Assembly (NCBI RefSeq): GCF_001940455.1 | Contig: NZ_MKQR01000026.1 | Location: 554,351-618,350, forward strand | Reading direction: 5' to 3' | Origin: Actinokineospora bangkokensis | Lineage (GTDB): Bacteria > Actinomycetota > Actinomycetes > Mycobacteriales > Pseudonocardiaceae | DNA: 64,000 bases | In this document: positions 20,629 to 40,000 of the stretch, piece after piece | Numbering within the stretch: position 1 is the first letter of the stretch | How the letters are laid out: the number at the start of each line of letters is the position of its first letter | Notes under the pieces: model-generated | What the model was told of the DNA's origin: nothing | Seen by the model: only the letters and a program-made list of their open reading frames with translations | Databases searched by the model: none | Program-made: the position numbers and the translations under genes

Positions 20629-20776
20629 GCCCGGTTGGGTGGATCCGCTTGGTCGGGGCCCCTATGACGATCATGTGCTGTCGGGCGGGAAAAGGCGGGC
20701 TGAAAAGATGCCCGCCCGTCCCGTTTGGGTAGCACATGATCGTCACCCCCGACCAAGCGAATCCACCCAACCGGGC
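20629..20776. repeat. Long palindromic intergenic element, copy A
   Basis: Outer 30-bp arms 20629-20658 and 20747-20776 are complementary with one mismatch; each contains GGTTGGGTGGAT or its complement. Inner arms ACGATCATGTGCT (20667-20679) and AGCACATGATCGT (20731-20743) pair perfectly. A GGGCGGG/CCCGCCC hairpin lies in the centre. The whole element is nearly identical to the reverse complement of copy C, and similarity runs on past the outer arm (GCCCACCACCC). No coding sequence is evident. Confidence 0.9.
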
Positions 20777-21035
20777 AGGACCTGCCGCCCAGGCTCGGCT
20801 TCTCGGGGTGGTCGCCTTGGTGCCCTCGTCATGCACGCTGGCGCGGGGGTAACCCGGGCAAGGGGACCCCTGTTTTCAACGTTACCGGCGGGGACCGACA
20901 AAACTCGATCCCCGCGGACGGGCTGTGGACAACTCGGGCTGGCCGGCTCACGCCGCCAGACACGCGCCTTCCCGCTTCTCCTTCTTTGCCCACGGCGCAA
21001 CCACTTACGCAGCGGGAAGCCCGGCTTCGGACATG

Positions 21036-21184
21036 CTCGATGCGGCGGACTTGTTTGGGTGGGGAAGGCGATCATGAGCTACCCTGTCACGGGTTGAGCG
21101 GGGCTCTTTTCGCCCCAGCTTTTCCCGCTCTCTCAGCTCATGATCGCCGTAGGGGCCCCACCCAAACAGGTCCACCGCATCGAG
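21036..21184. repeat. Long palindromic intergenic element, copy B (divergent subtype)
   Basis: Outer 29-bp arms 21036-21064 and 21156-21184 pair with two mismatches, and inner arms GGCGATCATGAGCT (21067-21080) and its complement (21135-21148) pair perfectly. Length, arm spacing, the ATCATG inner arm, the CTTTTCCCGC central tract and the string ATCGCCGTAGGGGCCCC match copy C, but the outer arms have a different sequence. It is therefore a second subtype of the same family. Confidence 0.85.
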
Positions 21185-21242
21185 CCCGCCACAAAACGAC
21201 CGGGCTTTCACGAGCCGAAGCCGCAGGCGAGGCAACCACCGA

Positions 21243-22409
21243 TCACGAGTGGACCGGAACCCACCCCAACCGCCCAGCGAACTCCCGCGCCCGCTCCGCC
21301 CAGGAATGCCGTCGAGCGACCTCCCGCCGCAACCCGCGCTCCCGTGTGGACCGAGCCGCTTCCTCCACCCGCGCGGCGAACTCCGCGGGCGTGCGCGCCA
21401 GCAGCACGTCCGCGCCCTCCGCCACCAACCGCTGGTGCGCGGGCAGGTCCGTGCCCACCACCGGCAGTTCGGCGGCCAGGTACTCCAGCGTCTTCAGGGG
21501 GAAGGACGCGCGGTTGAACTCCGTGTCCGCGTAGGGGCACAGGCCGACGTCGAAGGCGGCGAGCCAGCCCGGGAGCTCCTCGAACGGGACCGGTCCCACG
21601 GCGTGCACGTTCGCGCGGGCCAGCAGGACGCGCAGGCGCTGGGGTTCCCAGGCGGGGTCGCGGGGGCCGACCAGGACGAGGCCGACGCCGGAGTCGGCGA
21701 CGGCTTCCAGGAGGGAGATCTCGATGCGGGCCGACAGCTGGCCGACCAGTCCGGCGACCACGGTGGGGAAGCCCGGGGGCAGGTCGCGGGGGGTGGCGCC
21801 CGCGTAGGCGTCCGGGTCGCAGCCGTTGGGGAGTTCGTGGGCGGTGGCGCCGAGGTCGGACCAGCGGCGGGCGAGTTCGGGGCCCACGGCGAAGACCACG
21901 TCGGCGGCGGTCAGGGCGCGGCGCTCCTCGGCCAGCAGGCGGGCGGTGTCCTGGTTCATCAGGCGCGCGCCCGCCACCCAGTCGTCGGTGCCGTAGAGGA
22001 CGTTGCGGGTGTCGGGGCCCCAGTGGCCGAGCACGTCGTCGAAGGAGCAGGCGATGACGGCGTCGGGGGTGCGGCCGAGGGTGCGCAGGGCGGCGCGGAC
22101 CTGGGCGCGGACCAGGGGCCAGGTGGTGCCGCGGATGCCGGGGCGGGTCAGGCCGGGGAGGGCGACCGGGGTCAGCCGGTGCAGGCCCGGCCCGATGTCG
22201 CGCAGGGCCGGCTTCCACGGGCGGGCGCCGGGGGCGACGCCGCGGTAGCGGGCGGGGGTGGCCGGGGAGACGGGCGGGTCCACCCACAGGACGTCGGCGT
22301 GGGTGGTGAGCTGGTGGGCCAGGTGGCGCTCGGTGCCGCGCACGCCGTCGAACGTGACACCGGAGACGACCACCGCGAGCCGTCGTTCCTGCGTCGCCAT
22401 GGTGGTCAT
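21243..22409 (-). CDS. Glycosyltransferase (GT-B fold, TuaH-like)
   Basis: The 388-residue protein begins RLAVVVSGVTFDGVRGTERHLAHQL. The acceptor half contains DVLWVDPPVSP and the donor half VVAGLVGQLSARIEISLLEAVADSGVGLVLVGP, then LPGWLAAFDVGLCPYADTEFNRASFPLKTLEYLAAELPVVGTDLP, where the Pro-Leu-Lys-x-x-Glu segment occupies the nucleotide-binding position of GT-B enzymes. It resembles transferases of teichuronic acid and capsule loci. Its ATG is 22 bp downstream of the stop of the DUF4082 gene, on the same strand. Confidence 0.82.
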   Translation of the reverse strand: MTTMATQERRLAVVVSGVTFDGVRGTERHLAHQLTTHADVLWVDPPVSPATPARYRGVAPGARPWKPALRDIGPGLHRLTPVALPGLTRPGIRGTTWPLVRAQVRAALRTLGRTPDAVIACSFDDVLGHWGPDTRNVLYGTDDWVAGARLMNQDTARLLAEERRALTAADVVFAVGPELARRWSDLGATAHELPNGCDPDAYAGATPRDLPPGFPTVVAGLVGQLSARIEISLLEAVADSGVGLVLVGPRDPAWEPQRLRVLLARANVHAVGPVPFEELPGWLAAFDVGLCPYADTEFNRASFPLKTLEYLAAELPVVGTDLPAHQRLVAEGADVLLARTPAEFAARVEEAARSTRERGLRREVARRHSWAERAREFAGRLGWVPVHS

Positions 22410-22428
22410 CTCCGGTGTCTGGTCGGGA

Positions 22429-25400
22429 TTACTGGTTCTGGTCGAACAGCACGTCGACCCAGTAGTTGGCGCCGCCGTAGGAGCTGTTCGGGAAGCCCGA
22501 GCCCACGCGGTAGACGCCGTTGGGGTTCGAGCCCGCGGCCAGCGGGGGGCTGTTGACGCTGGTCCGGTTGAAGTAGCCGGAGTCGGCGGCGTAGCGGCCC
22601 ACGGTCGTGGTGTACGAAGCCACGTAGGTCTGGCCCGCGGTGATCGGCACCGGGGTGGCGAACAGCAGGGTCTGCCAGCCCGTCGCCGTCTCGCCCGCGA
22701 AGGTGCCCGTGGCCAGCTGGTTGCCCGCGGCGTCCCAGAGCGACCCGGTGTGCGTGCCGGTGTTCAGCGACCCCTTGTAGAAGCGCACGCCCTTGACGTA
22801 GCCGCCGGTGGCCGCGGTGAACCGGACCCCCAGCTCGTACGGGCTGGTGTCGTTGGCCGACTCCACGGTGGGCGTGGTGGCCGCGCTGAACAGCGAGCAC
22901 GGGCAGGTCGCCGTCGTCGTGGGCCAGATGTTCCACAGCGACGCCCCGGTCATGAGCACGCCGTTCGCGTCGGCGATGCGCATGCTGATCAGGTAGTACG
23001 ACCCGCCCACCATCGGCGCGCTCGGGGTGAACGTCACCGTCTTCTGGTCGGCGGAGATGGTCAGCGCGCCGCCCAGCTTCGCCCAGCCCGGGTCGGTCAT
23101 CGAGAACTGCGCCGAGCTGAGGTCCACCGGCTCGGAGAAGGTCATCGTGACCGGGGAGTTCAGCGGGACGTTGGTCGCGCTCTCGGCCGGGGTGCGGGAG
23201 ACGATCGTGGGCGGGGTGGTGTCGCCGTTGGCGCCCGCGGTCCACAGCACGTCGACCCAGTAGTTGGTGGCGTTGTAGGTGCCGGTGGGGAACCCGCCGC
23301 CCGCGCCGTACCGGTACAGGCCGTTGCCGCCGTAGGTGCCGTCCTTCACCGCGTGCAGGGACTGGTAGTCCGCGCTCTTGGAGAAGTACCCGCCGGTGGC
23401 GGCGTAGCGGCCGTTGGGGGCGTAGTACGACACGACGTAGGTGGTGTTGGCCTGCACGTTCACCGGGGAGGAGAACAGCAGGGTCTGCCAGCCGTTGGCC
23501 GTCTCGTTGGCGAAGGTGCCCGTGGCGAGCCGGTTGCCGGAGGCGTCCCACAGCGAGCCGGTGTGCGTGCCGGTGTTGGCGTCACCCTTGTAGAACTTCA
23601 CGCCGGTGACCTGGCCGCGCACGTCGAAGCGGACCTTGGTGCCCACCTCGATCGCGGACACGTCGTTGACCGACGCCGTGGCGGGCACGGCGAAGTCGTC
23701 CCACACCGAGCACGGGCAGGAGCTCGCCCGCGGGGTGCCGGTCTTGAACGAGAAGGTGTAGTTCTGCGGCGCGTTGCCCGCCAGGTCGTAGGCCCGGGTG
23801 GACACCGAGTAGCTGGTGCCGCCCGCCCAGTTCTGCGCGGGGGTGAACGTCACCGTCTTCTGGTCGCTGGACAGGCTCAGCGACCCGGAGACACCGCCGT
23901 TGGGCCCGTTGACCGCCACGACCGCCGACGACAGCGTGACCGGCTCGTCCCAGGTGACCGAGATGGGGGCGGTGAGGGTGACGCTGCCCTGGTTGTTGCC
24001 GGGCGAGGTGCTCGCCACCGCGGGCGGGCGGGTGTCCGGGCCGGGGTCGAGCGCGTAGACGACGTCGACCCAGTAGTTGGTGGCGCGGTAGCTGTCGGAC
24101 GGGAAACCCGAGGCGCCCACGCGGTAGACGCCGTTGGCGTCCCCGGCCACGCTCTGCTTCGCCGTCAGCGGCTCGACGCTGATCGGGGCCTTGGAGAAGT
24201 AGTCCTGGTCAGCGGCGTAGCGGCCGGTGTCGGTGTGGTACGAGGCGACGTAGGTGGTGCCGCCGGTGATCGCCACCGCGGTCGGGAAGGCCAGCGTCTG
24301 CCACCCCGTCGCGGTCTCGGCGCCGAAGGTGCCGGTCGCGAGCAGCTGGCCCGTGGCGCTCCACAGCGACCCGGTGTGCGTGCCGGAGTTGCCGGTGCCC
24401 TTGTAGAACTTCACGCCGCGGATGTAGCCGTCGGTCGCGGCGGTGAACTTCACGCCCAGCTCCACCGCGCTCACGTCGTTGGCCGCCGGGGTGGTGGGGA
24501 CGTCGGTGCTCGCCCAGATCGAGCACGGGCAGGTGCGGGTGTTGACGGTGACGGCGCGGCTGACGACGGCCGACAGGTTCGCCGAGTCGTCCACCGCGCG
24601 CACCCGCAGCGTGGCGGTGCCGGAGGCGGGCGGGGTGTAGGTGTAGTTCCAGGTGGTCGTGCCCGCGGTCCAGTTCGCCGCGTGCCAGGTGCTGCCGTCG
24701 ACGGAGACCTCGACGCCCGCGACCTTGCCCGCGGCGTCGCTCACCGAACCGCCGAAGGTGTAGGACTGGGCCACCGTGCCGTTGGTCGTCGAGTTGATCG
24801 CGACGGTCGGCGGCGCGGTGTCGGTGCTCGCGGAGGCCGCGACCAGGCCGGTGCCGGTGCGCAGGGTGCCCGCCTGCACGCCCATGTCCGCCATCAGGTT
24901 CACCGTGGCCTGCTGGATGCGGATGTCCGAGGTCGGCATGTCGGTGCGGAAGGCGTGCTCGTCGTCGAGCCCCCACGCCCACTGCACGGTGCCCGCGCCG
25001 AACACCAGCGCGCCCGAGGGCGCCCGGTACAGGGTCAGCGCGTGCGTCTTGGTGCCGGACTTGTAGACGTCGCCGTAGTTCTGCAGGACGTAGGAGCCGT
25101 CCATGGTCACCGTGGTCCGCGACAGCTGCGCCACGCCCGCGGGCTGCGCGCCGTTCTCCTCCACGGAGTTCCACTCGTAGCCCAGCGTGCCGGGCTGGAA
25201 GGTGTAGCTGCCGGAGGTCATCGTGGCCAGCGGGGTCCCGCGCCAGAGCCGCATCTTGCCGTAGGCGGCGGGCACGCTCAGCGAGTCGTCGCGGCGGCCG
25301 TTGACGGTGAACAGGTTGCCCAGCAGGGAGTTCTCCGGGCGGCCGCCGTCCGACGGCGGGCTGAACCGCGGGTCGCGCCAGGTGCCCGTCCACTGCGCCG

Positions 25401-26457
25401 ACGGGTCGATCTTGGCGTTGGCCTTGGTCTCCTTGTAGATCGTCATGTTCCGCCACGCGGTGCCCGAGGCGTCCAGGGAGTTGGTCCAGCGGTGCTTCCA
25501 GAACACCTCGTTGCCGGTGAAGAAGGCGAGGTTGACCCCGGCGTCGCGGGCGGCCTCGACGTTGTCGCGCTGCTCGGCCGACCAGTACTCGTCGTGGCCC
25601 ACGGCCAGGAACACCCGGTGGTTCTTGATGAGCTGGCCGCGGCGGGCGCTGTCGACGTTGGTCGAGTACGTCATGTCGTACCCGTTGGCCTCCATGAACT
25701 TCAGCATCGGGTACTCGGCGTTGAAGATGTAGTTCTCCTCGCCGCCGCCGGTGATCGGGCGGTTGTAGCTCACGCCGTAGGAGGAGCCGCCGTCACCCGG
25801 GCCGGTGCCGGTGTAGAGGCTGTTGCCGCCGTAGCGGTTGTAGGCGTGCCAGGTGGCGTCGGCGGTCTGGAACAGGACCTTCGCGGTGCTGCTGTCGTCG
25901 CGCACCACGAACGGGACCTCGTTCTCACCGCCGGTGTCGTTGCGGTGCAGCACGGCGTAGTACAACCCGGACACGGCGTCGGCGGGCACCTGCCAACTGG
26001 CCGAGACGCCCCAGTTTCCGCAGTCGACCATCTGGGTCGGCCCGTCGACCAGGCACGCGGGCTGGTTCTGCACGCCGACGTGCAGGGCCTGGCCCACCTG
26101 CCGGGCGCCGAGGCCGCCGTACCAGCCGAGCCGGTAGATGGTGACCGAGTAGCTGCTCGCGTCGGTCTTCACCTTGAAGTCCACGGTGCCGCCGACGTTG
26201 GTGCTGATGTCGGTGGTGTACCCGGCGATGGAGTCGTCGATGCCCGCGACCTGCCAGTTGGCCGTACCCGCCTTGGTGTTCTCGCAGGCGACCTTGTTGG
26301 TCACCGGCGCGTCGCAGGCGGCGGCGGCCGCCGCCGGGGCGAACGCCACGACCGGCACCGCCACCGCACCCGCGGCCACCGCGGCCGCCGCAACCCGGGA
26401 GACCGCCCTCCGCACCGCTGGTCCGGGCCTGCCGAACCACATGCCGATGCCGCGCAT
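22429..26457 (-). CDS. Large secreted multidomain protein: DMFase-beta-like domain plus three DUF4082 repeats
   Basis: A 1342-residue exported protein. GGGAGGAG precedes the ATG, and a signal peptide ends near AAAAAAC (about residue 49). Residues 50-560 resemble the C-terminal domain of the N,N-dimethylformamidase large subunit (IYRLGWYGGLGARQ, GHDEYWSAEQRDNVEAARDAG, FFTGNEVFWKHRW). Then come an Ig-like domain, a DUF4082 domain, an SbsA/Big_5 Ig-like domain, DUF4082, Big_5 and a third DUF4082. Each DUF4082 starts with CPCS and contains GVKFYKG or GVRFYKG, THTGSLW and YWVDV. The substrate is unknown. Its place in the exopolysaccharide locus suggests it binds or acts on the surface polymer outside the cell. 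Confidence 0.85.
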   Translation of the reverse strand: MRGIGMWFGRPGPAVRRAVSRVAAAAVAAGAVAVPVVAFAPAAAAAACDAPVTNKVACENTKAGTANWQVAGIDDSIAGYTTDISTNVGGTVDFKVKTDASSYSVTIYRLGWYGGLGARQVGQALHVGVQNQPACLVDGPTQMVDCGNWGVSASWQVPADAVSGLYYAVLHRNDTGGENEVPFVVRDDSSTAKVLFQTADATWHAYNRYGGNSLYTGTGPGDGGSSYGVSYNRPITGGGEENYIFNAEYPMLKFMEANGYDMTYSTNVDSARRGQLIKNHRVFLAVGHDEYWSAEQRDNVEAARDAGVNLAFFTGNEVFWKHRWTNSLDASGTAWRNMTIYKETKANAKIDPSAQWTGTWRDPRFSPPSDGGRPENSLLGNLFTVNGRRDDSLSVPAAYGKMRLWRGTPLATMTSGSYTFQPGTLGYEWNSVEENGAQPAGVAQLSRTTVTMDGSYVLQNYGDVYKSGTKTHALTLYRAPSGALVFGAGTVQWAWGLDDEHAFRTDMPTSDIRIQQATVNLMADMGVQAGTLRTGTGLVAASASTDTAPPTVAINSTTNGTVAQSYTFGGSVSDAAGKVAGVEVSVDGSTWHAANWTAGTTTWNYTYTPPASGTATLRVRAVDDSANLSAVVSRAVTVNTRTCPCSIWASTDVPTTPAANDVSAVELGVKFTAATDGYIRGVKFYKGTGNSGTHTGSLWSATGQLLATGTFGAETATGWQTLAFPTAVAITGGTTYVASYHTDTGRYAADQDYFSKAPISVEPLTAKQSVAGDANGVYRVGASGFPSDSYRATNYWVDVVYALDPGPDTRPPAVASTSPGNNQGSVTLTAPISVTWDEPVTLSSAVVAVNGPNGGVSGSLSLSSDQKTVTFTPAQNWAGGTSYSVSTRAYDLAGNAPQNYTFSFKTGTPRASSCPCSVWDDFAVPATASVNDVSAIEVGTKVRFDVRGQVTGVKFYKGDANTGTHTGSLWDASGNRLATGTFANETANGWQTLLFSSPVNVQANTTYVVSYYAPNGRYAATGGYFSKSADYQSLHAVKDGTYGGNGLYRYGAGGGFPTGTYNATNYWVDVLWTAGANGDTTPPTIVSRTPAESATNVPLNSPVTMTFSEPVDLSSAQFSMTDPGWAKLGGALTISADQKTVTFTPSAPMVGGSYYLISMRIADANGVLMTGASLWNIWPTTTATCPCSLFSAATTPTVESANDTSPYELGVRFTAATGGYVKGVRFYKGSLNTGTHTGSLWDAAGNQLATGTFAGETATGWQTLLFATPVPITAGQTYVASYTTTVGRYAADSGYFNRTSVNSPPLAAGSNPNGVYRVGSGFPNSSYGGANYWVDVLFDQNQ

Positions 26458-26661
26458 CAGCGACTCCTCCCGGGAAAACCGAACCGCCCGCACGCGGCCC
26501 GGGACCGCACACGGTCCCGTATGGACCGCATCGACCTGCTGAAACCGTTTGTTACACCGTGGAAAAGGTATTGTGGAAAGCGTTGTTCTCGTCACTTCCT
26601 GACGTCACGCCAGCGCGGCGGGACGATTACCCGGAGTGCGAGGAACAGGCCGGGAAAGGGC

Positions 26662-27660
26662 TCAACGCCCGGATTCCGCGCGCCACCACGCGACCAGGTC
26701 GCGCAGCCCGTCGGCCATCCCCAGCTCCGGCTTCCAGCCCAGGTCGGCCGCGGCGGCGGAGATGTCGGCCAGCCTGCGGGTGACGCCGTTGACCTTGCGC
26801 TCCGGGCCGTGCTCGACGCCGAGGTCGGAGTCCATCGCCGCGAGCAGTGCCTGGGCCAGGCCGAGCAGGCTGGTCTCCTGGTTGCTGGCGATGTTGTACA
26901 CCCGGTCGGTGACGTCGGCGCGGGCGGCCAGCAGGTTCGCGCGGGCGATGTCGTGGACGTGCACGAAGTCCATCGTCTGCGCGCCGTCGCCGAAGATGAG
27001 CGGCGCCTTGCCGTCGGCGATGCGCTCCATCCAGCGGATCAGCACCTCGGTGTAGAGGCCGTGCACGTCCATCCGCGGTCCGTAGACGTTGAAGTAGCGC
27101 AGGGCGACGTAGTCCAGGTCGTACATCGCCTTGAAGCTGCGCAGCACGCCCTCGTTGAACGCCTTGGCGGCGCCGTAGAAGGTGTCGTTGTTGTACGGGT
27201 GGTGGCGCTCGGTGGTGGGGAACTCCTCGGCCAGCCCGTACACCGAGGCCGACGAGGACGCCACGACCTTCTTCACCCCGGCGGCCGCGGCCGCCTCCAG
27301 CACGGTGAAGGTGCCGTCCACCAGAACCTCCAGCGCCAGCCGGGGCTCCTCGGCGCACTGGGTGATGCGGATGGCGGCCAGGTGGAACACCAGGTCGACG
27401 CCGTCGGTCAGCTCCGCCACCAGCGCGCGGTCACCGATGTCGCCCTGGACGACGCGCAGCCGGTCGCCGTGCCGCTGGGCCTGGGCGAGGTTGGCCATCC
27501 GGCCGCGCACCAGGTTGTCCAGCACGACGACCTCGGCGGCACCGGCGTCGAGGAGCTGGTCGACGACGGCCGAGCCGATGGTGCCTGCGCCGCCGGTGAC
27601 CAGCGCGCGCTGTCCGGTGATCGGTTGGGCCTTCGCCGACGAACCGGGGGTGTCCGACAT
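26662..27660 (-). CDS. NAD-dependent UDP-sugar epimerase/dehydratase (SDR family)
   Basis: The 332-residue extended SDR has the NAD motif TGGAGTIGSAVVDQLLDAGA (from residue 22), FHLAAIR, the catalytic SSSASVYG region with Tyr and Lys in YGAAKAFNEG, and RYFNVYGPRMD, which is typical of UDP-glucose 4-epimerase-like enzymes. A preference for UDP-GlcNAc/GalNAc or UDP-glucuronate epimerisation is possible, the latter attractive because ugd is in the same locus. It ends 33 bp downstream on the minus strand from the acyltransferase gene. Confidence 0.87.
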   Translation of the reverse strand: MSDTPGSSAKAQPITGQRALVTGGAGTIGSAVVDQLLDAGAAEVVVLDNLVRGRMANLAQAQRHGDRLRVVQGDIGDRALVAELTDGVDLVFHLAAIRITQCAEEPRLALEVLVDGTFTVLEAAAAAGVKKVVASSSASVYGLAEEFPTTERHHPYNNDTFYGAAKAFNEGVLRSFKAMYDLDYVALRYFNVYGPRMDVHGLYTEVLIRWMERIADGKAPLIFGDGAQTMDFVHVHDIARANLLAARADVTDRVYNIASNQETSLLGLAQALLAAMDSDLGVEHGPERKVNGVTRRLADISAAAADLGWKPELGMADGLRDLVAWWRAESGR

Positions 27661-27693
27661 CAGGTGTTCCCTTTCTGCACTACGAGTCCTGGG

Positions 27694-28839
27694 TTAGCGG
27701 CGCGCTCGCGCGGCCCGCAGCTCGGCGAACGAGCGGTTGTCGATGAACGGGCGCTCGAACGCCCGGTGGAACGCGTACGACACGGCCAGCACCAGCGGCA
27801 CGCCCACGACGAGCAGCACGGCGAACCGGCGGGTGGTGTCGTCCACGACCCGGGTGACGAAGAAGTGGTACACCAGCCACAGCACCGGCAGGTGGATGAG
27901 GTAGACGCTGTAGGAGAAGTGGCCGACCACCCGGAAGGGCTTGCTGGCGAACACCGCCGACAGCGGGGACCACCCACCCGCGGTCATCAGCGCGAGCGCG
28001 AGCGCCACGCCGAGGCCCACCAGCAGGTCGATCTCGAAGTAGTGCGCGTCCACCCACACGGGCCCGCGGACGAAGGCCAGCGCGGCGAACCCGGCGAAGC
28101 ACGCGGCGCTCAGGCCGCCCACCAGCACCGGCACCCGCAGCCCGGAGCGCACGACCTCCGCGGCGACCACGCCGAAGACGAACAGCGCGAAGAACTGCGG
28201 GGTGAGGTTGCGGATCCCGTCCAGCGCCTCGACCTGCGCCGACGCCACCTGCGCGGCCACCACCAGGCCCAGGCCCAGCGCGCCGACCGCCCACCCGGGC
28301 AGCCGCCTGCGGGCCAGCAGCACCAGCGGGAACAGGAAGTAGATCTGCCACTCGATCGCGATCGACCAGAACGCCCCGTTGGGCCGCGGCGCGTCGACGA
28401 CGTCCTGCAGCAGCAGCGCGTGCACGACGATCCCCTTGAGCGACACCAGGTGCCCGGTGAACGCGGGGGTCACCACGCCGAAGACCAGCGCGGACAGCGC
28501 GAGCGCGGCCCAGTACGGCGGCAGGATGCGCCACGCCCGCCTGCGCAGGAACCGGCCCACCCCGCCCAGCCGGTAGTCGCGGCGTGCCGGGGCGATGGCC
28601 AGCGAGAAGCCGCTCACCACGATGAACACCGACACCGCGAGGTGGCCGTAGACCATCCACGACGCCCAGGCCGGGCCGGTGTCGCGCGGGTAGTCCGGGT
28701 AGGTGGTCAACCAGATGTGGTGCACCACGACGAAGACGGCCGCCAGCGCCCGCACACCGTCCACGAAGGACAGCCGGAGCGGGGTGGCGGTGGCGCGGTC
28801 GACCGCCCCACCGGCGGCGACCGCCTCGCCCGCGGTCAC
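27694..28839 (-). CDS. Acyltransferase 3 family (OafA-like) membrane protein
   Basis: A 381-residue membrane protein with about ten hydrophobic segments. RLSFVDGVRALAAVFVVVHHIW carries the conserved R-G/A-x-A-x-x-x-V-x-x-x-H pattern of the family, and FSIAIEWQIYF-like (SIAIEWQIYFLFPL) and HFSYSVYLIHLPV motifs follow. Such proteins transfer acetyl or other acyl groups to extracellular polysaccharides. The GTG start at 28837-28839 overlaps the TGA of the oxidoreductase upstream by 4 bp; the frame extends further upstream only as a shadow. Confidence 0.88.
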   Translation of the reverse strand: MTAGEAVAAGGAVDRATATPLRLSFVDGVRALAAVFVVVHHIWLTTYPDYPRDTGPAWASWMVYGHLAVSVFIVVSGFSLAIAPARRDYRLGGVGRFLRRRAWRILPPYWAALALSALVFGVVTPAFTGHLVSLKGIVVHALLLQDVVDAPRPNGAFWSIAIEWQIYFLFPLVLLARRRLPGWAVGALGLGLVVAAQVASAQVEALDGIRNLTPQFFALFVFGVVAAEVVRSGLRVPVLVGGLSAACFAGFAALAFVRGPVWVDAHYFEIDLLVGLGVALALALMTAGGWSPLSAVFASKPFRVVGHFSYSVYLIHLPVLWLVYHFFVTRVVDDTTRRFAVLLVVGVPLVLAVSYAFHRAFERPFIDNRSFAELRAARARR

Positions 28840-29942: not shown

Positions 29943-29955
29943 TCCCTTGCCTTCT

Positions 29956-32364: not shown

Positions 32365-32372
32365 GCCTTCAG

Positions 32373-32446
32373 TGGCCAGGGGCGGGGTCGAACCGCCGAC
32401 CTACCGCTTTTCAGGCGGTCGCTCGTACCAACTGAGCTACCTGGCC
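32373..32446 (-). tRNA. tRNA-Phe (GAA)
   Basis: A 74-nt cloverleaf: acceptor GGCCAGG with CCTGGCC, D arm GCTC/GAGC, anticodon stem ACCGC/GCGGT with loop CTGAAAA (anticodon GAA), T arm GGCGG/CCGCC with TTCGACC, discriminator A. CCA is not encoded. It is the last tRNA of the Glu-Asp-Phe unit. Confidence 0.97.
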
Positions 32447-32537
32447 AAACCACTACCCCCCCGAAAACCAAACCGGTGCGCCAGCACCCGTACCAGCTAG
32501 ACCACGCTGGTCCCGGCACCAACCGCACCGTGGGGGT

Positions 32538-32556
32538 CTGGGGGGTCGCCCCCCAG
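32538..32556. other. Hairpin between tRNA-Asp and tRNA-Phe
   Basis: CTGGGGGG-TCG-CCCCCCAG makes a perfect 8-bp stem with a 3-nt loop in the 168-bp spacer between the two tRNAs. It could be a processing element or an internal terminator; no T-tract follows. Confidence 0.5.
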
Positions 32557-32614
32557 AAACCGCGGCAAGCGATCCCGCCTGCGCTCTCCGCAGGCAGGGA
32601 CCACCCATCGCTTG

Positions 32615-32688
32615 CGACCCTGACGGGACTCGAACCCGCGACCTTCGCCGTGACAGGGCGACGCGCTAACCAACTGCGCCACAGGGCC
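32615..32688 (-). tRNA. tRNA-Asp (GTC)
   Basis: A 74-nt cloverleaf: acceptor GGCCCTG with CAGGGTC (one G-T pair), anticodon stem TCGCC/GGCGA with loop CTGTCAC (anticodon GTC), T arm GCGGG/CCCGT with TTCGAGT, discriminator G as expected for Asp. CCA is not encoded. Confidence 0.96.
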
Positions 32689-32740
32689 ATGCTGTACTGC
32701 TCGATCTTGCTGTCCTGCACACTACCGTACCGCTCCTGCG

Positions 32741-32813
32741 TGCTCCCAACGGGATTCGAACCCGCGCTGCCGCCTTGAAAGGGCGGAGTCCTAGGCCGCT
32801 AGACGATGGGAGC
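32741..32813 (-). tRNA. tRNA-Glu (TTC)
   Basis: A 73-nt cloverleaf: acceptor GCTCCCA with TGGGAGC, D-arm TCGTCTAGCGGCCTAGGA, anticodon stem CCGCC/GGCGG with loop CTTTCAA (anticodon TTC), T arm GCGGG/CCCGT, discriminator A. CCA is not encoded. It is the first gene of the tRNA unit. Confidence 0.96.
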
Positions 32814-32921
32814 CTGGTCTTGCTAGCTCGTGTCGCTGGGAGCACGCATAGCTTATGACATGCCCGTCCGACCGCCAAAACGGGGGGTGCGAACCGGGTC
32901 CGAGCTGGGCAAACCCGGGGG

Positions 32922-33650
32922 TCAGATGGCGAGCAGGGCCATGTGCAGCTCGGTGCGGGCGGGGCCGAGGACGGCCAGCAGCTCGTCGGTGCGGAGGTTG
33001 GTGGCCTCCTCGGCGGCCTCCCAGCGGGCGTGCAGGTGGGGCAGGGCGGCCGCGGCGGCGGTGAGGGCGTCGACCTCGGCGGGGGTCCAGCCGAGGTCCG
33101 CGAGGGGTTCGGCGCGCGGGTCGGCGAGCAGGGCGACGGGGACGGGGATGCCGCAGGCGCGCAGGGCGGCGAAGTGCAGGCCGCCGCGCAGCTCGCGCAG
33201 CAGCATCAGGGCGTGGCCGAGGCGCTGCGGGCCGCCGTGCGGGCGGTCGGCGGCGCGCAGGCCCGCGAACAGCAGCAGCCCGCCCGCGCCCGCGTGGTCG
33301 ACCACCTCGAAGATGAGGTCGGCGGTGCGGTCGGGGGTGGTGGCCCCGGCCAGGGCGGTGGCCGACCACTGGCGCAGGCCCTCCAGGTAGGCGGCGAGGG
33401 CGTCCTCGGCCAGGAGCGTGCAGTCGGCGTGCGCCTGCTCGACGACCTGGGCGGGGTGCACGCCCAGGGCCTCGGTGGCCACGGCCGGGGTCGGGGCGCC
33501 CAGCGCGCTGGCCCGGCCCACCAGGCGCAGCACGCCCGCGGGCTGGCCCGCCGCCGCCTCCTGCTCCGCCAGCTCCGGCGAGGTGAGGAACGCGCCCCCG
33601 AGCCCGTGCACGACGTCGCGGGTGTCGGCGGCGGTGGAGACGGCGGTCAC
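32922..33650 (-). CDS. SCO6745-like conserved actinobacterial protein
   Basis: A 242-residue protein, all helical by eye. The layout (an early ASALGAPTPAVATEALGVHPAQVVEQAHADC segment, a middle segment ending in GLLLFAGLRAADRPHGGPQRLGHALMLLRELRGGLHFAALRACGI, and a late DLGWTPAEVDAL) matches the SCO6745 family of unknown function as I remember it. The conserved H(F/V)AAL after LRELRGG is the clearest signature. No catalytic role is known to me. It lies upstream of the tRNA unit on the same strand but 109 bp away, so probably separate. Confidence 0.6.
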   Translation of the reverse strand: MTAVSTAADTRDVVHGLGGAFLTSPELAEQEAAAGQPAGVLRLVGRASALGAPTPAVATEALGVHPAQVVEQAHADCTLLAEDALAAYLEGLRQWSATALAGATTPDRTADLIFEVVDHAGAGGLLLFAGLRAADRPHGGPQRLGHALMLLRELRGGLHFAALRACGIPVPVALLADPRAEPLADLGWTPAEVDALTAAAAALPHLHARWEAAEEATNLRTDELLAVLGPARTELHMALLAI

Positions 33651-33754
33651 GGCCGCAACGGTGTCACGGAATCGCCGGGAACCGCAATGGCGCGGGTCCC
33701 CGGCGGCCGTGGGAACGGGTTGTCGGGAATGGGGCCGTCGGAAATCGCGCCGCG

Positions 33755-33859
33755 TGAATCGGCGCTGACCGGATCGACAAGGCTCGAATCGGCACGGCTC
33801 GAATCAGCGCTGACTGAATCAGCGCCGACCGGGTCGGCGCTGACCGGATCGGCGCCGCG
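33755..33859. repeat. 15-bp tandem repeat, seven units
   Basis: Seven consecutive 15-bp units with consensus near CGGATCGGCGCTGAC and 1-6 differences each fill the gap between the SCO6745-like gene and the small gene at 33869. Both strands stay open through the repeat because the unit is a multiple of three, but no gene call needs it. Confidence 0.75.
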
Positions 33860-33868
33860 GTCACGGGG

Positions 33869-34111
33869 TCAGCGGCGCACCGGCGGGACGCCGTCCTCGC
33901 CGTCGACCAGGCCCAGCATCTCCAGCAGTTCGCGGCAGTCACCGGCGTCGGTGGCCCCGCGGGCGACGGCGACCCTGGCGCGGCGGACCTGCTCGTCGGA
34001 GACCCTGGCGGAGTCGCCGGAGCGGGGCGCGGGCACGCCGCCGGTGTACGGGGCGCTCGACAGGGTGTCCTCGCGCAGGAGGAAACTCCGCACTTCAAGG
34101 GATCCACTCAT
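33869..34111 (-). CDS. Small conserved acidic protein of unknown function
   Basis: An 80-residue protein beginning MSGSLEVRSFLLREDTL. GGGAGG sits just upstream of two adjacent ATGs (34112-34114 and 34109-34111); the second has the better spacing. The C-terminal helical part RVSDEQVRRARVAVARGAT is followed by DAGDCRELLEMLGLVDGEDG. I recognise DxxDCRxLLxMLGL as a pattern of short actinobacterial proteins without known function. No signal peptide or membrane segment. Confidence 0.65.
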   Translation of the reverse strand: MSGSLEVRSFLLREDTLSSAPYTGGVPAPRSGDSARVSDEQVRRARVAVARGATDAGDCRELLEMLGLVDGEDGVPPVRR

Positions 34112-34303
34112 CATTTCCTCCCCGGCTTTTTGTTTGGGCGTGAGGCTATGAGACAACTCCGGACCCCGGCAGCCCCCCGGCGAGTGAACCCCGGCGGGGC
34201 CGCAGGTTGCGGAAAGTGACCGGTATTCGCGGTGGTTGGCCGGCCGCCCACGGGCGGCACCGGTCCCGCGCCCGCACCGGACGGCGTCCGGTTGCCACAC
34301 CCC

Positions 34304-34318
34304 TACCCCCTAGGGGTA
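34304..34318. promoter_or_regulatory. CsoR-type copper operator
   Basis: TACCCC-CTA-GGGGTA is a perfect G/C-tract palindrome 12 bp upstream of the csoR ATG, the layout known for CsoR operators (AT-flanked C4-5/G4-5 dyads). It predicts autoregulation of csoR-copZ-copA and release on Cu(I) binding. Confidence 0.8.
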
Positions 34319-34329
34319 TCGTCGACGGC

Positions 34330-34626
34330 ATGGAGCACCAGCACCGGCCCGGGTACAGCGGCGCGAAGGACGCGCACCAGCGGCGGCTGCGGCGGGTCGA
34401 GGGCCAGGTCCGCGGCTTGCAGCGGATGGTCGACGAGGACGCCTACTGCATCGACGTGCTGACGCAGGTGTCCGCGGCCACCAAGGCGCTGCAGGCCTTC
34501 GCCCTCGAACTGCTGGAGGAGCACCTGGCCAGCTGCGTCGTCGACGCCGCCCGCGAGGGCGACGAGGCCGCGGCCGTGAAGGTGCGCGAGGCCGCCGACG
34601 CCATCGCCCGCCTCGTCCGCTCCTGA
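34330..34626 (+). CDS. csoR: Copper-sensing repressor CsoR
   Basis: A 98-residue all-helical repressor that leaves DNA when it binds Cu(I). The Cu ligands Cys40 (DAYCID), His65 and Cys69 (EEHLASC) have the exact 25/29-residue spacing of mycobacterial CsoR, which argues for copper rather than nickel or formaldehyde sensing. [16 protein letters not shown] (residues 18-33) is the DNA-binding helix. The ATG at 34330 is chosen over a longer frame that would read through the operator. It heads a three-gene operon with copZ and copA. Confidence 0.92.
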
Positions 34627-34691
34627 GCACACCCGGCACAGCCACACCCAGCGCGACAGCGCAGAGCACACCCACGCAGGAGGGGACCACC

Positions 34692-34901
34692 GTGTCCGTG
34701 CAGAACACCTACACCGTCACCGGCATGACCTGCGGCCACTGCGCCGCCTCGGTCACCGAGGAGATCTCCGAGCTGTCCGGGGTCACCGACGTCGCCGTGG
34801 ACGTGCCCACCGGCGCGGTCACCGTGACCAGCGACGCCGAACTCGACCGCGCCTCCGTCGCCGCCGCGGTGACCGAGGCGGGCTACCAGCTGGCCGGCTG
34901 A
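34692..34901 (+). CDS. copZ: Copper chaperone CopZ (HMA domain)
   Basis: A 69-residue single HMA domain with beta-alpha-beta order and the metal site MTCGHC (residues 13-18). It carries Cu(I) in the cytoplasm and hands it to the P-type ATPase encoded 29 bp downstream. GTG start with AGGAGGGG 8 nt upstream. Confidence 0.92.
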
Positions 34902-34929
34902 GACCGGCCCCACCGCGAGGGGAGCGCAC

Positions 34930-37206
34930 GTGACCACCACCGAGCGCGGCGCCGGACCGGGCACCGCCGAGCAGGGCACCGAGCTGGGCACCGTCGAGCT
35001 GGACATCGGCGGCATGACCTGCGCGTCCTGCGCCAACCGGGTCGAGCGCAAGCTCAACAAGCTCGACGGCGTGCGGGCCACGGTCAACTTCGCCACCGAG
35101 CGCGCCACCGTCACCACGCCCACCGGGCTGCCGCTGGAGCGGCTGGTCGGCGCCGTGGAGGCCGCGGGCTACACCGCGGCACCGGTGGCCGAGGAGCCCG
35201 CGGACGAGGCCGCCGACGACGCCGCGTTCGACGACGAGGCGGGTGAGCTGCGCGAGCGGTTCCTGCTCTCGGCGCTGCTCAGCGCCCCGGTGGTGGCCGT
35301 GTCGATGGTCCCGGCGTGGCAGTTCCCCACCTGGCAGTGGGTGGTGTTCGCGCTCGCGTCGGTGGTCGTGGTCGTCTGCGCGTGGCCGTTCCACCGGGCC
35401 GCCGCGGTGAACCTGCGGCACGGCGCGACCACCATGGACACCCTGGTGTCCATGGGCGTCGTGGTGGCCTACCTGTGGTCGGCCTACGCGCTGCTGTTCG
35501 GCGGCGCGGGCGAGGTGGGCCTGCGCCACGAGTTCAGCCTGCTGCCCGGCGGCGGGCACACCGCGGACGTCTACTTCGAGGTCGGCGTCGCCGTGACCAC
35601 GTTCCTGCTGCTCGGCCGCTGGCTGGAGGCGCGCTCGAAGCGGCGGGCGGGCTCGGCGCTGCGGGCGCTGCTGGCCCTGGGCGCCAAGGACGTCGCGGTG
35701 CTGCGCGGCGGCACCGAGGTGCGGGTTCCGATCGGCGGGCTGCGCGCGGGGGAGCTGTTCGTGGTGCGGCCCGGGGAGAAGGTGGCCACCGACGGCGAGG
35801 TCGTCGAGGGCGGCTCCGCGGTCGACCGCTCGCTGGTCACCGGCGAGTCGGTGCCCGAGGAGGTCGGCCCCGGCGCCGCGGTCGTCGGCGGCACGCTCAA
35901 CACCAGCGGCAGGCTCGTCGTGCGGGCCACCCGGGTCGGCGCGGACACCCAGCTGGCGCAGATGGCGCGGCTGGTGGAGCAGGCCCAGACCGGCAAGGCG
36001 CAGGTGCAGCGGCTGGCGGACCGGGTCTCGGCGGTGTTCGTCCCGGTGGTGCTGGTCATCGCCGCCGCCACCCTGGCGGGCTGGCTGCTCAGCGGCGCGG
36101 CCGCCGACGCCGCCGTCACCGCCGCGGTGGCCGTGCTGGTGATCGCCTGCCCGTGCGCGCTGGGCCTGGCCACGCCGACGGCGCTGCTGGTCGGCACCGG
36201 CCGGGGCGCGCAGCTGGGCATCCTGGTCAAGGGCCCGGAGGTGCTGGAGTCCACCCGCCGGGTCACCACGGTCGTGCTGGACAAGACCGGCACGGTCACC
36301 ACCGGCCGGATGTCGGTCGCGGAGCTGCTGCCCGCCGAGGGCGTCACCGCCGAGCGGCTGCTGCGGGTGGCCGGGGCGGTGGAGTCCGGCTCCGAGCACC
36401 CGATCGCCCGGGCCATCGCCGCCCGCGCCGCCGAGGACGCGCCGCTGCCGCCGGTCGAGCACTTCCACAGCACCGAGGGCCTGGGCGTCACCGGCGTGGT
36501 GGCGGGGGAGGACGTGGTGGTGGGCCGCCCCCGGCTGCTGGCCCAGCACGGCGTCGCGGGCGTCAACGAGCTGGAGCGGGCCAGGGCCGAGGCCGAGGCG
36601 CGCGGCAGCACGGTCGTCGCGGTCGCCGCGGGCGGCCGGGCGCTCGGCCTGGTCGCGGTGGCCGACGCGGTGAAGGCCACCAGCGCGGCGGCGATCACCG
36701 CGCTGCGCGACCTGGGGCTGCGGCCGGTGCTGCTCACCGGCGACAACACCCGGGTGGCCGAGGCGGTCGCGGCGCGGGTCGGCATCACCGACGTCATCGC
36801 GGAGGTGCTGCCCGGGGAGAAGGTCGACGCGGTGCGCCACCTGCAATCCCGGGGCGAGGTCGTGGCCATGGTGGGCGACGGGGTCAACGACGCGCCCGCG
36901 CTGGCCGCGGCCGACCTGGGCCTGGCCATGGGCACCGGCGCCGACGCGGCGATCGAGGCGGGCGACCTCACCCTGGTCCGCGGCGACCTGCGGTTGGCGG
37001 CCGACGCGATCCGGCTGTCCCGGCGCACCCTGGCCACGATCAAGGGCAACCTGTTCTGGGCCTTCGCCTACAACGCCGCGGGCATCCCGCTCGCCGCGTT
37101 CGGCCTGCTCAACCCGATGCTCGCGGGGGCGGCGATGGCCCTGTCCAGCGTGTTCGTGGTGTCCAACAGCTTGCGCCTGCGGGGGTTCCGGGCCAGCGCG
37201 AGCTGA
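34930..37206 (+). CDS. copA: Cu(I)-exporting P1B-type ATPase
   Basis: A 758-residue efflux pump. One N-terminal HMA domain (GGMTCASC, Cys31 and Cys34), eight membrane segments, the membrane metal site Cys407-Pro-Cys409 ([13 protein letters not shown]), the phosphorylated Asp451 in DKTGTVT, the HP dipeptide ([11 protein letters not shown]), the ATP-binding region GEGLGV-like (STEGLGVTG) and the hinge [10 protein letters not shown] are all present. CPC plus the csoR/copZ neighbours point to Cu(I) export. Length is normal for a single-HMA CopA. Expression is expected to follow the CsoR operator. Confidence 0.95.
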
Positions 37207-37468
37207 GCGGGGGCGCACCCGGGGCGTGTCGACGAGGCGACAACCGGGTGAACGACACGGGGATTTCCCCCTCCCGCCAGACGCGTGCGCGTGCAACAAT
37301 CGTGGTGCTGGCCCTCCCCCGGTCAGCATCTGTGGAGATCCCCCCGGCCCCCGCGTTCCTCCCCCTGGCGCGGGGGCCTCTCCACGTCCGCGCAGGTCAG
37401 CACCCGGGCGCCCAGTGGCGCACCGCACACGGCTCGCAGGCGCGCACCCGGCCGGCTATCGTGTCCCG

Positions 37469-37813
37469 GTGCCTTTTCCCTCTTTCGGACGCAACAAGTC
37501 GGACGCCAAGCAGTCCGACGGCACCAACCCCGGGCGCCACCGCACGCCACTGCGGGACCAGGAGCAGGAGGAGGTCCCGGACAACGACCTGGAGGACTAC
37601 CTCGCCGCGCTCGCACCCGACAGCGACCCGGAGTCGACCGGCGCGGGCCGCCGCTTCGGCAGCGCCGAGGTGCACCAGCTGAGGCTCCCGCTCGCCGCCA
37701 ACGAGCAGCTGCGCGAGGTCGCCGCCTACCGCAACACCTCCCCGATGGCGCTGGCCCAGGAGTGGGTCATGCAGCGCCTGGAGTGGGAGATCCAGCAGAT
37801 CCGGGAGTCCTAG
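37469..37813 (+). CDS. Small conserved protein with ribbon-helix-helix-like C-terminus
   Basis: A 114-residue protein with a polar, charged N-terminal half (FGRNKSDAKQSDG, then EQEEVPDNDLEDYLAAL) and a compact C-terminal end, EVHQLRLPLAANEQLREVAA followed by SPMALAQEWVMQRLEWEIQ. The strand-helix-helix pattern of the last 50 residues resembles ribbon-helix-helix DNA-binding folds. The GTG at 37469 is preferred; the longer frame reads Pro/Arg-rich sequence with no gene character. Function unknown. Confidence 0.6.
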   Translation: MPFPSFGRNKSDAKQSDGTNPGRHRTPLRDQEQEEVPDNDLEDYLAALAPDSDPESTGAGRRFGSAEVHQLRLPLAANEQLREVAAYRNTSPMALAQEWVMQRLEWEIQQIRES

Positions 37814-37821
37814 CGGTTCGC

Positions 37822-37863
37822 GTGCGACAGCCCCGGCCCGCTGCTGGACCGGGGCTGTCGCAC
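37822..37863. terminator. Bidirectional hairpin terminator
   Basis: GTGCGACAGCCCCGG pairs perfectly with CCGGGGCTGTCGCAC around a 12-nt loop, between the convergent 37813 stop and the cold-shock gene stop. Confidence 0.8.
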
Positions 37864-37898
37864 GTGGTCAGCCGGTGCCGCTCCCGCGCGGCGGGTGA

Positions 37899-38105
37899 CT
37901 ACTGGAGCGGGACGACGTTCGTGGCCTGCGGGCCCTTGGTGCCCTGGCCGACCTCGAACTCGACCCGCTGGTTCTCCTCCAGCGTCCGGAAGCCCTTCGA
38001 CTGGATCTCGGAGTAGTGGACGAAGACATCGGCCTCGCCGTTGTCCTGGGCGATGAACCCGTAGCCCTTCTCCGAGTTGAACCACTTGACGGTGCCCTGT
38101 GCCAT
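37899..38105 (-). CDS. cspA: Cold-shock domain protein
   Basis: A 67-residue single cold-shock domain that binds single-stranded RNA/DNA. RNP1 is KGYGFIA (from about residue 13) and RNP2 is [15 protein letters not shown] opens the fold and the length is standard. GGAGG lies about 12 nt before the ATG. A strong hairpin sits 27 nt further upstream in the leader. Confidence 0.95.
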
Positions 38106-38535
38106 AAACCTGCCTCCAACGCAGGAGCTCAGGGGCTGCACCGTGCAGCCCCCAGGCCGCCCCGGGCGGTACCCCCGCCCCTGTGCGACGGAAGAGCAGC
38201 GCGCCCGCGTCGTCGTTCCGCGAGCGTGTAAGCACGAACACAGAAACTACGGCCAGCGACCAGAAGAGTACGGGGTGAATCTCCGGCGCACTACTGCCTG
38301 ACGGGCATCCTGCTAGGCCGAGCGGGTGATGCTCTTCGGCACTCAGCGCGACGGCCACATCGCTGTCCGGATGCGACCGCCGCACGCCGACCCCCACGCC
38401 GCGATGTGTCTCGCGTCACAGGCCGGAACGGCCAACGACCGGCGGCGCCGGAGCGTCGATACGGGTGTACCCGCGAGGCGGGTCGGCGAGTGCTTTTCCG
38501 TGGGGGAAGAGGCCGTGGGGGAACAGGAGCAGGAC
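38106..38535. other. Divergent intergenic region: csp leader and L,D-transpeptidase promoter
   Basis: 430 bp with no gene. The left part is the leader of the cold-shock gene (minus strand) and contains a perfect hairpin. The right part must carry the promoter of the lipoprotein gene at 38536. Open frames across it lack a ribosome binding site and coding character. Confidence 0.6.
38132..38152 (-). promoter_or_regulatory. Hairpin in the cold-shock gene leader
   Basis: GGGGCTGCAC and GTGCAGCCCC flank a single C, a perfect 10-bp palindrome ending 27 nt upstream of the ATG. In a cold-shock mRNA leader it could be a temperature-dependent structure near the ribosome binding site, or a protein-binding dyad; the sequence cannot say which. 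Confidence 0.5.
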
Positions 38536-39729
38536 ATGCAGAGGCCGAAGCGCTGGGTCCCGGCGCTGCTGGGCGCGGGGGTCGCGGCGGCGCTGGCGCT
38601 GGGCGGGTGCAGCGCGGACGGACCGGTCACCGCGGCGGGCGGCGCGGGCGTGGAGCGCGCCGAGCAGCAGGCGGTCGCCACGTCGGCGGCGGTCACCACG
38701 ACCCCGGCGGCGGGGGCCGTCGACGTCGCGCCCGGGGTGCCCGCGAGCGTGACCGTGGCGGGCGGGTCGCTGGTCGAGGTGGCGCTGACCAACCCGGACG
38801 GCAAGCGGGTGGCGGGGAACCTGGCCGCGGACAAGAAGTCCTGGGTGACCACCGAGGACCTGGGCTACGGCAAGACCTACACGTGGTCGGGCACCGCGAC
38901 CGGCGCCGACGGCGCCGCGGTGCCGCTGGCGGGCGCGTTCACCACCGCCAAGCCCAAGCGGCAGGTGGGCGCCAGCATCAACACCGGCGACGGCCAGACC
39001 TACGGGGTCGCCATGCCGATCGCGGTCACCTTCGACGCGGCGGTCAAGGACAAGGTCGCCGCCGAGCAGGCGCTGGAGGTGGAGACCTCGGTGCCCACCG
39101 AGGGCGCGTGGGCGTGGCTGGACGACCGCCGGGCGCACTGGCGGCCCAAGGAGTACTGGAAGCCGGGCACCCAGGTCACCGTCACCGTCGACATCTACGG
39201 CCGCGACCTCGGCGGCGGCACCTACGGCCGGGCCGACCTCACCTCCGCGTTCACCATCGGCCGGTCCCAGGTGGTCCAGGCCAACACCCAGACCCACCGC
39301 ATGGTCGTCCTCCGCGACGGGGTGCCGGTGATGGACTTCCCGGCCTCCATGGGCCTGGACTCCGACCCGGGCCGCGTCACCCGCAGCGGCACCCACGTCG
39401 TGATGAGCAAGCACGCCACCTACGGCATGACCAACCCCAAGTACGACTACGAGAACGTCGTCGTCCCCTGGGCCGTCCGCATCTCCAACAACGGCGAGTT
39501 CGTCCACGGCTACGCCCCCTCCATCCCCCAGCAGGGCAAGCGCAACGTCAGCCACGGCTGCATCAACCTCAGCCCCACCAACGCCAAGGCCTACTACGAC
39601 ACCGCCCTGCCCGGCGACCCCGTCGAGATCACCGGCAGCACCCAACAGCTCGGCCCCGCCGACGGCGACTACTACGACTGGGCCATCCCCTGGTCCCAGT
39701 GGACCACCATGGCCGCCACCAACAACTAG
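38536..39729 (+). CDS. L,D-transpeptidase lipoprotein (Ldt family, YkuD domain)
   Basis: A 397-residue enzyme that makes 3-3 peptidoglycan cross-links. The signal ends in LALGGCS (lipobox, Cys24-Ser), two Ig-like domains follow (about residues 60-260, with FTTAKPKRQVGASINTGDGQTYG at the second), and the YkuD domain ends in NVSHGCINLSPTNA with catalytic Cys342 and its His. The C-terminal GDYYDWAIPWSQW matches the tail of mycobacterial LdtMt2-type enzymes. AGGAG lies 10 nt before the ATG. Confidence 0.93.
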   Translation: MQRPKRWVPALLGAGVAAALALGGCSADGPVTAAGGAGVERAEQQAVATSAAVTTTPAAGAVDVAPGVPASVTVAGGSLVEVALTNPDGKRVAGNLAADKKSWVTTEDLGYGKTYTWSGTATGADGAAVPLAGAFTTAKPKRQVGASINTGDGQTYGVAMPIAVTFDAAVKDKVAAEQALEVETSVPTEGAWAWLDDRRAHWRPKEYWKPGTQVTVTVDIYGRDLGGGTYGRADLTSAFTIGRSQVVQANTQTHRMVVLRDGVPVMDFPASMGLDSDPGRVTRSGTHVVMSKHATYGMTNPKYDYENVVVPWAVRISNNGEFVHGYAPSIPQQGKRNVSHGCINLSPTNAKAYYDTALPGDPVEITGSTQQLGPADGDYYDWAIPWSQWTTMAATNN

Positions 39730-39757
39730 ACGGCCGCCACCGACGAGACGGCAGCAC

Positions 39758-39803
39758 AGCCCCATGGGGACGGCCCGCGCAAGCGGCCCGTCCCCATGGG
39801 GCT
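39758..39803 (+). terminator. Hairpin terminator after the L,D-transpeptidase
   Basis: AGCCCCATGGGGACGG and its complement CCGTCCCCATGGGGCT pair over 16 bp, extended by CCCGC/GCGG and closed by a GCAA loop. No T-tract. Confidence 0.75.
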
Positions 39804-39853
39804 TCCCGGAGAACGCAACCACCCGCACGAGCTGAGCCCGGACAGCCGGCCCT

Positions 39854-40000
39854 GCCCGGTTGGGTGGATCCGCTTGGCTGGGGGAGGCGATCATGTGCTA
39901 CCCAACGGGACGGGCGGGCGTCTTTTCAGCCCGCCTTTTCCCGCCCGACAGCACATGATCGCCGTAGGGGCCCCGGCCAAGCGCATCCACCCAACCGGGC
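39854..40000. repeat. Long palindromic intergenic element, copy C
   Basis: Outer 30-bp arms 39854-39883 and 39971-40000 pair with two mismatches. Inner arms GGCGATCATGTGCT (39886-39899) and AGCACATGATCGCC (39950-39963) pair perfectly. The centre (39900-39949) carries CTTTTCAGCCCGCCTTTTCC between G/C-rich flanks. The whole unit is nearly the reverse complement of copy A 19 kb away. Confidence 0.9.

Follow-up and report, generated by a model that had tools for sequence, protein, structure and literature searches.

The window analysed here, a stretch of 64,000 nucleotides from Actinokineospora bangkokensis (assembly GCF_001940455.1, contig NZ_MKQR01000026.1, positions 554,351 to 618,350 of the forward strand), carries three copies of a hairpin element of about 148 bp that belongs to a family dispersed through the genome. 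This is probably a non-autonomous intergenic repeat family of Actinokineospora that resembles the repetitive extragenic palindromic (REP) and enterobacterial repetitive intergenic consensus (ERIC) sequences, is putatively mobile, adopts its fold in single-stranded form and is retained close to gene ends. A REP/ERIC-like repeat is the most economical account given the occupation of at least 118 places in A. bangkokensis, the empty matching sites in related species and a conserved fold with drifting arms.

Hairpin elements in the window

Independent palindrome detection located all three elements. Element 1 lies at 20629–20776 on the minus strand, element 2 at 21035–21185 and element 3 at 39854–40000, both on the plus strand. 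The original prediction had the same positions for elements 1 and 3, gave 21036–21184 for the middle copy, and is here amended by the minus-strand assignment of element 1. Elements 1 and 3 have an A-type core and element 2 has a B-type core. The outer arms are 30 bp long (element 1: 20629–20658/20747–20776, 97% complementary; element 2: 21035–21064/21156–21185, 93%; element 3: 39854–39883/39971–40000, 93%) and enclose inner arms of about 14 bp and a G/C hairpin core. This predicted layout stood up to both the arm detection and a shuffling test, with fold z-scores of -13.7, -12.8 and -11.6 for elements 1, 2 and 3 and none of 200 dinucleotide shuffles folding as well. Chance palindromes were ruled out, with z below -11.

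Two features had been overlooked in the first reading of the sequence, a bulge (G)TAGGGG and a conserved 5′ flank. The bulge, GTAGGGG, is one-sided, lies on the 3′ side between the outer and inner stem facing about 2 nt, and is a further constant feature of the element; its AGGGG runs from 20663 down to 20659 (minus strand) in element 1, at 21151–21155 in element 2 and at 39966–39970 in element 3, where CCCC follows (39971–39974). The flank comprises about 40 bp (ends approximate) conserved alongside the elements, at 20777–20820 on the minus strand for element 1, common to many A-type copies, at 20990–21034 on the plus strand for element 2, common to many B/C-type copies, and at 39812–39853 on the plus strand for element 3. 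Across copies the general unit is a hairpin of ~140–150 nt with an outer stem (P1) of ~30 bp, a GGGG bulge (usually (T)AGGGG), an inner stem (P2) of ~10–14 bp and a terminal hairpin region with an unpaired strand, e.g., CTAAGCT or CTACCC. A CTTTT run is found 3′ of the core hairpin in many copies.

A covariance model (R2) built from 27 copies of four genomes returned the three elements as its full-length matches in the window (E 2.8e-33, 1.8e-28 and 4.2e-32), two of the three being among its training rows. The sole further match, at 39759–39802 (E 6e-4), is a terminator-like hairpin with 21-bp arms (39758–39803) directly upstream of element 3. An Rfam search of the window matched three tRNAs alone at gathering score, leaving the elements unmatched, and a lax search of seven loci with copies gave three microRNA-hairpin matches, each below its own gathering score.

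Copy number and variation within A. bangkokensis

A covariance model (R1) built from 23 copies gave 148 matches in the 7.45 Mb of A. bangkokensis, corresponding to at least 118 distinct places, a lower bound because scoring covered the best 150 of the 9837 first-look candidates. The training rows match R1 by construction, and one reversed row was removed before the 23-row alignment. BLAST with an A-type query found at least 40 places, of which 39 others were at 90–97% identity, and a B-type query likewise found at least 40, of which 19 others were at 91–99%. Three core types (A, B and C) and several outer-arm types occur, combined in mixed fashion. Of the 50 pairs predicted for the 23-row alignment, 20 showed at least one two-sided, pair-keeping change and the bulge AGGG was identical in 23/23 rows. 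All 13 close pairs (<1 kb) were in opposite orientation, with a spacing of 91–99, 135 or 222–260 bp. Copies were unevenly spread over the contigs, with 3 on C9 and 30 on C28.

These counts support the original prediction of a dispersed, non-coding, intergenic repeat of the genus, with at least 118 places here and the family seen in 14 of 16 Actinokineospora genomes. The prediction was to be given up if only the three copies existed, without relatives in sister genomes, or if each were an ordinary terminator of independent origin; the copy number and the relatives dispose of the former, and 90–99% identity among dispersed copies disposes of the latter. The REP- or MITE-like behaviour it proposed (MITE, miniature inverted-repeat transposable element) is seen in the empty orthologous sites and the inverted pairs of A. 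bangkokensis.

Several loci carry altered or compound forms. The segment between elements 1 and 2 (segment M, 20821–20989, no strand assigned) is also found with other copies, including upstream of many single A-type copies; in the window and in loci L087, L088 and L099 it contains a conserved AAGGGGACCCCTGTTTTCAACGTTACC block plus CTGTGGACAACT, which resembles a DnaA box. Small palindromes, the reversed A-type element, segment M and the B-type element make up a composite at 20535–21240 (extent approximate, no strand assigned), which is absent from the matching site of relative G003. Near C28:785890 (L057) an A-type copy has shrunk to an arm stub, a form suggestive of a deleted palindrome. On C6 (L059:1324–2921), ~1.6 kb separates an A-type copy from a B-type copy cut short within the core, with no open reading frame of at least 100 codons at a third-position GC content (GC3) above 0.85 and a single weak gene call at 1685–2095. 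The 5′ flank box is repeated in tandem in the upstream flank of L036 and in both flanks of L117, in units judged by eye at ~45 bp; G003 has a tandem array of ~35 bp made of the element's 3′ end together with its flank. Contigs C1, C7, C17, C22 and C24 end at element copies, and L041:2270–3960 contains CTAGCTAGCTAG linkers near copies, apparent scaffold joins of the deposited assembly. The idea of element pairs flanking a transposase gene found no support: the 2-kb pair C26:925513/927550 holds CTAGCTAGCTAG linkers and the one gene called in the 1.6-kb C6 interval is unassigned.

Position relative to neighbouring genes

Genes were called with a simple codon-usage caller trained on 26 window genes. 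Both neighbours were called for 110 of the 118 copies of A. bangkokensis, 77 lying between convergent genes, 32 between co-directional genes and 1 between divergent genes, and overlap with called genes never exceeded 60 nt. The lone divergent call (C26:925513) is ~100 bp from a CTAGCTAGCTAG linker resembling a scaffold join. Among the 87 regions that hold a single copy and have two called neighbours the distribution was similar, with 62 convergent, 24 co-directional and 1 divergent. By comparison, the window has 53 pairs of adjacent genes, 8 of them convergent, and its two element sites are each flanked by co-directional genes. Within the co-directional pairs of A. bangkokensis the element was in sense orientation 21 times and in antisense 11 times. 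Copies of genus relatives (n = 30) were also mostly between convergent genes (19 convergent, 11 co-directional, 0 divergent); the 10 copies of other genera comprised 1 convergent, 7 co-directional and 2 open. Samples of G014 gave 12 rows (5 convergent, 4 ++ of which one is a false positive, 1 -- and 2 open) and samples of G005 gave 14 rows (4 convergent, 7 co-directional and 3 divergent, the three being one array).

Distribution among relatives

The family was seen in 14/16 Actinokineospora genomes, with arm sequences differing by genome. A DNA search (best 14 candidates per genome) found it in 3/15 other genus members. Using R2, 22 of 200 genomes of the family Pseudonocardiaceae were matched, 10 from the genus with 13–15 matches each (best 15 candidates scored) and 12 from other genera with 1–8 weaker matches each; one copy each was read from 10 of these 12 (L150 and L151 unread). 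In the order, 7/249 genomes were matched, all of the genus (best 12 candidates per genome). Copies in a region beside an IclR-type gene in G004, G005, G011 and G015 brought the genus total to 14. A scan of a genome-contig collection matched 3 records, one from Lentzea, which is one of the other genera, with candidate matches in a Salimicrobium and an Eisenbergiella record, and plasmid and phage sequence collections gave no match to the element.

In copies from seven relatives (G013, G002, G014, G001, G008, G006 and G009) the inner arms were unlike those of A. bangkokensis and the layout was unchanged; the outer arms were partly alike, with GGGTGG recurrent. In G014 the bulge A was missing from some copies and GGGG was kept. 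Spaced samples of 400 kb contained 11 copies in G014 and 14 in G005, indicating roughly 200 and 270 per genome; a bulge-less different hairpin in G014 (L308:11977) was left out of this count and is still included in the strand and context rows. The 20 spaced 20-kb samples of G014 placed every copy beyond 4.06 Mb, with some found elsewhere by a genome-wide R2 search. G005 has arrays in a single orientation, unlike the inverted pairs of A. bangkokensis.

Evidence for a strand preference of the fold

Selection on a cruciform predicts equal numbers of G.T and A.C wobbles, an A.C being a G.T on the other strand. Among 37 copies from genus relatives (L155 left out, as its P1 was cut wrongly), P1 contained 58 G.T cells vs 3 A.C cells, or 37 vs 3 when counted as distinct genome-by-position events (binomial p 2e-8, the events not being fully independent). 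A looser register with other genera included gave 44 G.T vs 10 A.C. P1 of A. bangkokensis held 106 vs 15 cells, at 10 positions each, with common forms only G.T (one-sided Fisher p 0.04). The excess of G.T on one strand in the sister species speaks for a fold of that strand more than for a symmetric cruciform. Whole-fold energy was better for the plus strand in 77/118 copies of A. bangkokensis, 27/37 of relatives (other genera included) and 13/14 of G005, and the folds of relatives (other genera included) contained 151 G.U pairs on the plus strand vs 73 on the minus strand. Together these results support a plus-strand fold maintained in several lineages; the wobble bias does not separate RNA from single-stranded DNA.

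Occupied and empty orthologous sites

The composite at 20629/21035 was absent in G003 and G014, the relatives with both flanking genes matched, and no element was found in the loci fetched from 12 further relatives, where the match was limited to the left gene. Nine relatives matched on either side of the 39854 site (G002, G003, G004, G005, G007, G009, G011, G012 and G015), and all nine lack an element between the flanks; G008, where the site is split between contigs, was excluded from judgement, and G006, G014, G010, G013 and G001 have a different right-hand neighbour. G006 has an element of its own there, with ~215 bases extra compared to G014, located beyond the hairpin that belongs to the upstream gene. 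Five of the 31 copies read from nine relatives were in intergenic regions also occupied in A. bangkokensis, four in the same and one in the opposite orientation (L116 and L133, shared with G013). This shared occupancy is near chance, given 118 places among perhaps 900 convergent regions (a rough estimate).

One intergenic region, bounded by an IclR-type gene and tRNA-Glu, was occupied in 10/16 genomes, in one orientation throughout, with the element 201–620 bp from the tRNA in the nine genomes measured. Taken with the empty and occupied sites, this region indicates that both retention and gain occur. In G002 (L260), long GGTTCCAGCCCTCT-like and CTCTGC-like tandem arrays follow tRNA-Glu where other species carry the element. 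The window has three tRNA genes of its own, clustered on the minus strand at 32373–32813.

Comparison with known systems

MITEs are short, non-coding elements with inverted termini and many copies. The element has inverted arms, but the entire element is a palindrome and neither a parent transposon nor a target-site duplication was seen, the ends being blurred by divergence. Integron attC sites are hairpins in which certain unpaired bases are constant and one strand is favoured, as in the element, but the latter is dispersed and not in cassette arrays, and no integron integrase passed the cut-off in 16 genomes; attC-like sites were rejected on that ground and on a box orientation that, by eye, was wrong against the consensus. 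The original suggestion of an attachment site or a classical MITE found no support: no target-site duplication was seen, no integron integrase passed the cut-off (0/16), and inspection by eye of the genes next to a few copies, with no family search aimed at them, recognised no transposase.

RU-1 is the ERIC sequence and is not known to have a partner. It has been described as a 127-bp, intergenic, multi-copy repeat (PMC2759123). By description, the element shares its size class, intergenic position and multiple copies with ERIC/RU-1 but is from another phylum, and its arms are free to vary from species to species around an unchanged bulge and fold. REPs are described as high-copy, intergenic palindromes of 20–40 bp, often 3′ of coding regions, with subfamilies that have alternative complementary stem bases (PMC3733652), and bacterial interspersed mosaic elements (BIMEs) as pairs in alternating orientation (PMC2817692). 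The element is likewise intergenic and high-copy (at least 118), with 13/13 close pairs inverted here though not in G005; it differs from a 20–40 bp REP in being ~148 bp, two-stage and internally bulged. A REP with a REP-associated tyrosine transposase (RAYT) would be expected to have a GTAG or CGTC tag at one end and a Y1 transposase in the genome, and neither was found in A. bangkokensis; GTAG is internal (in the bulge, and in the loop in G005), with GCAG or CGAG in some copies. The element was undescribed in the literature among the matches listed.

Weighing of explanations

Several observations count against a putatively mobile repeat with a single-strand fold. Searches for Y1 transposase, RVT_1 and integron integrase yielded no mobilising enzyme, other transposase families not having been searched. 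Y1 transposase (PF01797) was absent from A. bangkokensis and present in 2/16 genus genomes, with no element in the 14 kb around the two genes, so that Y1/RAYT mobilisation was rejected; reverse transcriptase RVT_1 was likewise absent here (3/16 in the genus), which removed retro-mobility by a resident enzyme; and integron integrase (TIGR02249) was over the cut-off in 0/16 genus genomes. The strand evidence is mixed: the energies agree with the wobble bias in part, the plus strand having the better energy in just 3/12 G014 rows, and the folds of A. bangkokensis contain 296 G.U pairs on the plus strand vs 363 on the minus. The convergent preference is weaker in G014 (5/12 rows) and G005 (4/14), no target-site duplication was seen, exact ends being blurred at this divergence, and the IclR/tRNA-Glu region fits long retention or local function equally well. 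R2 had no match in 400-kb samples of G010 and G012, which either lack the family, have few copies or hold copies beyond its reach; the family is thus not universal in the genus, or is too diverged in these two. This patchiness (14/16) is compatible with a mobile repeat and left its probability unchanged. Weaker TIGR02249 matches in 16/16 genomes and 14/14 controls were read as other tyrosine recombinases, and with ordinary tyrosine recombinases present, one of them is a possible mobiliser.

A functional structured RNA, acting at gene ends as a two-way transcription barrier or 3′-end stabiliser and multiplied because it is useful, would explain the 77/110 copies between convergent genes, the one-strand wobble bias in sister species and the single orientation in the 10/16 occupied IclR/tRNA-Glu regions. 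We regard it as unlikely, as a terminator-like hairpin already stands between the upstream gene and the element (39854 site; G006), matching sites are often empty, two genus genomes have no copy in 400 kb, so that genes manage without it, and the 21 sense vs 11 antisense copies in co-directional pairs follow no strict rule. It is more improbable still that replication template switching (quasipalindrome correction) preserved the perfection of a large palindrome amplified by chance, with no selection on the fold needed. Template switching is on record as able to create and maintain hairpins (PMC8794818), and in G014 the outer arms are almost perfect and the strand test is reversed, but such a process predicts no strand bias, at odds with the 58 vs 3 wobbles in the 37 genus-relative copies, and leaves the near-constant one-sided bulge, the conserved flank and the dispersal unexplained. 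Ordinary intrinsic terminators arisen independently at each gene would account for the location near gene ends and the CTTTT run after the core hairpin in many copies; the 90–99% identity of dispersed copies within the genome already refutes them, and the shared 5′ flank and the absence at matching sites make them still harder to credit.

A REP/ERIC-like repeat is therefore preferred. Under this account, copies of the plus strand left single-stranded at a replication fork or in a transcript would fold, a putative enzyme would recognise the stem and the bulge, and new copies would settle beside gene 3′ ends, where they may be least harmful. A more specific proposal, offered tentatively, is that the plus strand (single-stranded DNA or RNA) might be the substrate of a putative fold-reading machine in Pseudonocardiaceae, one independent of Y1 transposase, reverse transcriptase and integron integrase; the element could then represent a new non-autonomous hairpin class in which stem shape and GGGG bulge are read and the arms drift freely.

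For the A. bangkokensis assembly, element copies coincide with contig ends and joins. For actinomycetes more widely, the family points to a mobilising or fold-binding activity, with the three usual suspects absent from the A. bangkokensis genome. With 100 copies or more in each genome (a count for A. bangkokensis, an estimate from samples for two others), one fold and bulge, and arms that drift between species, it constitutes a natural experiment in which one can ask which molecule is selected, single-stranded DNA, RNA or cruciform.

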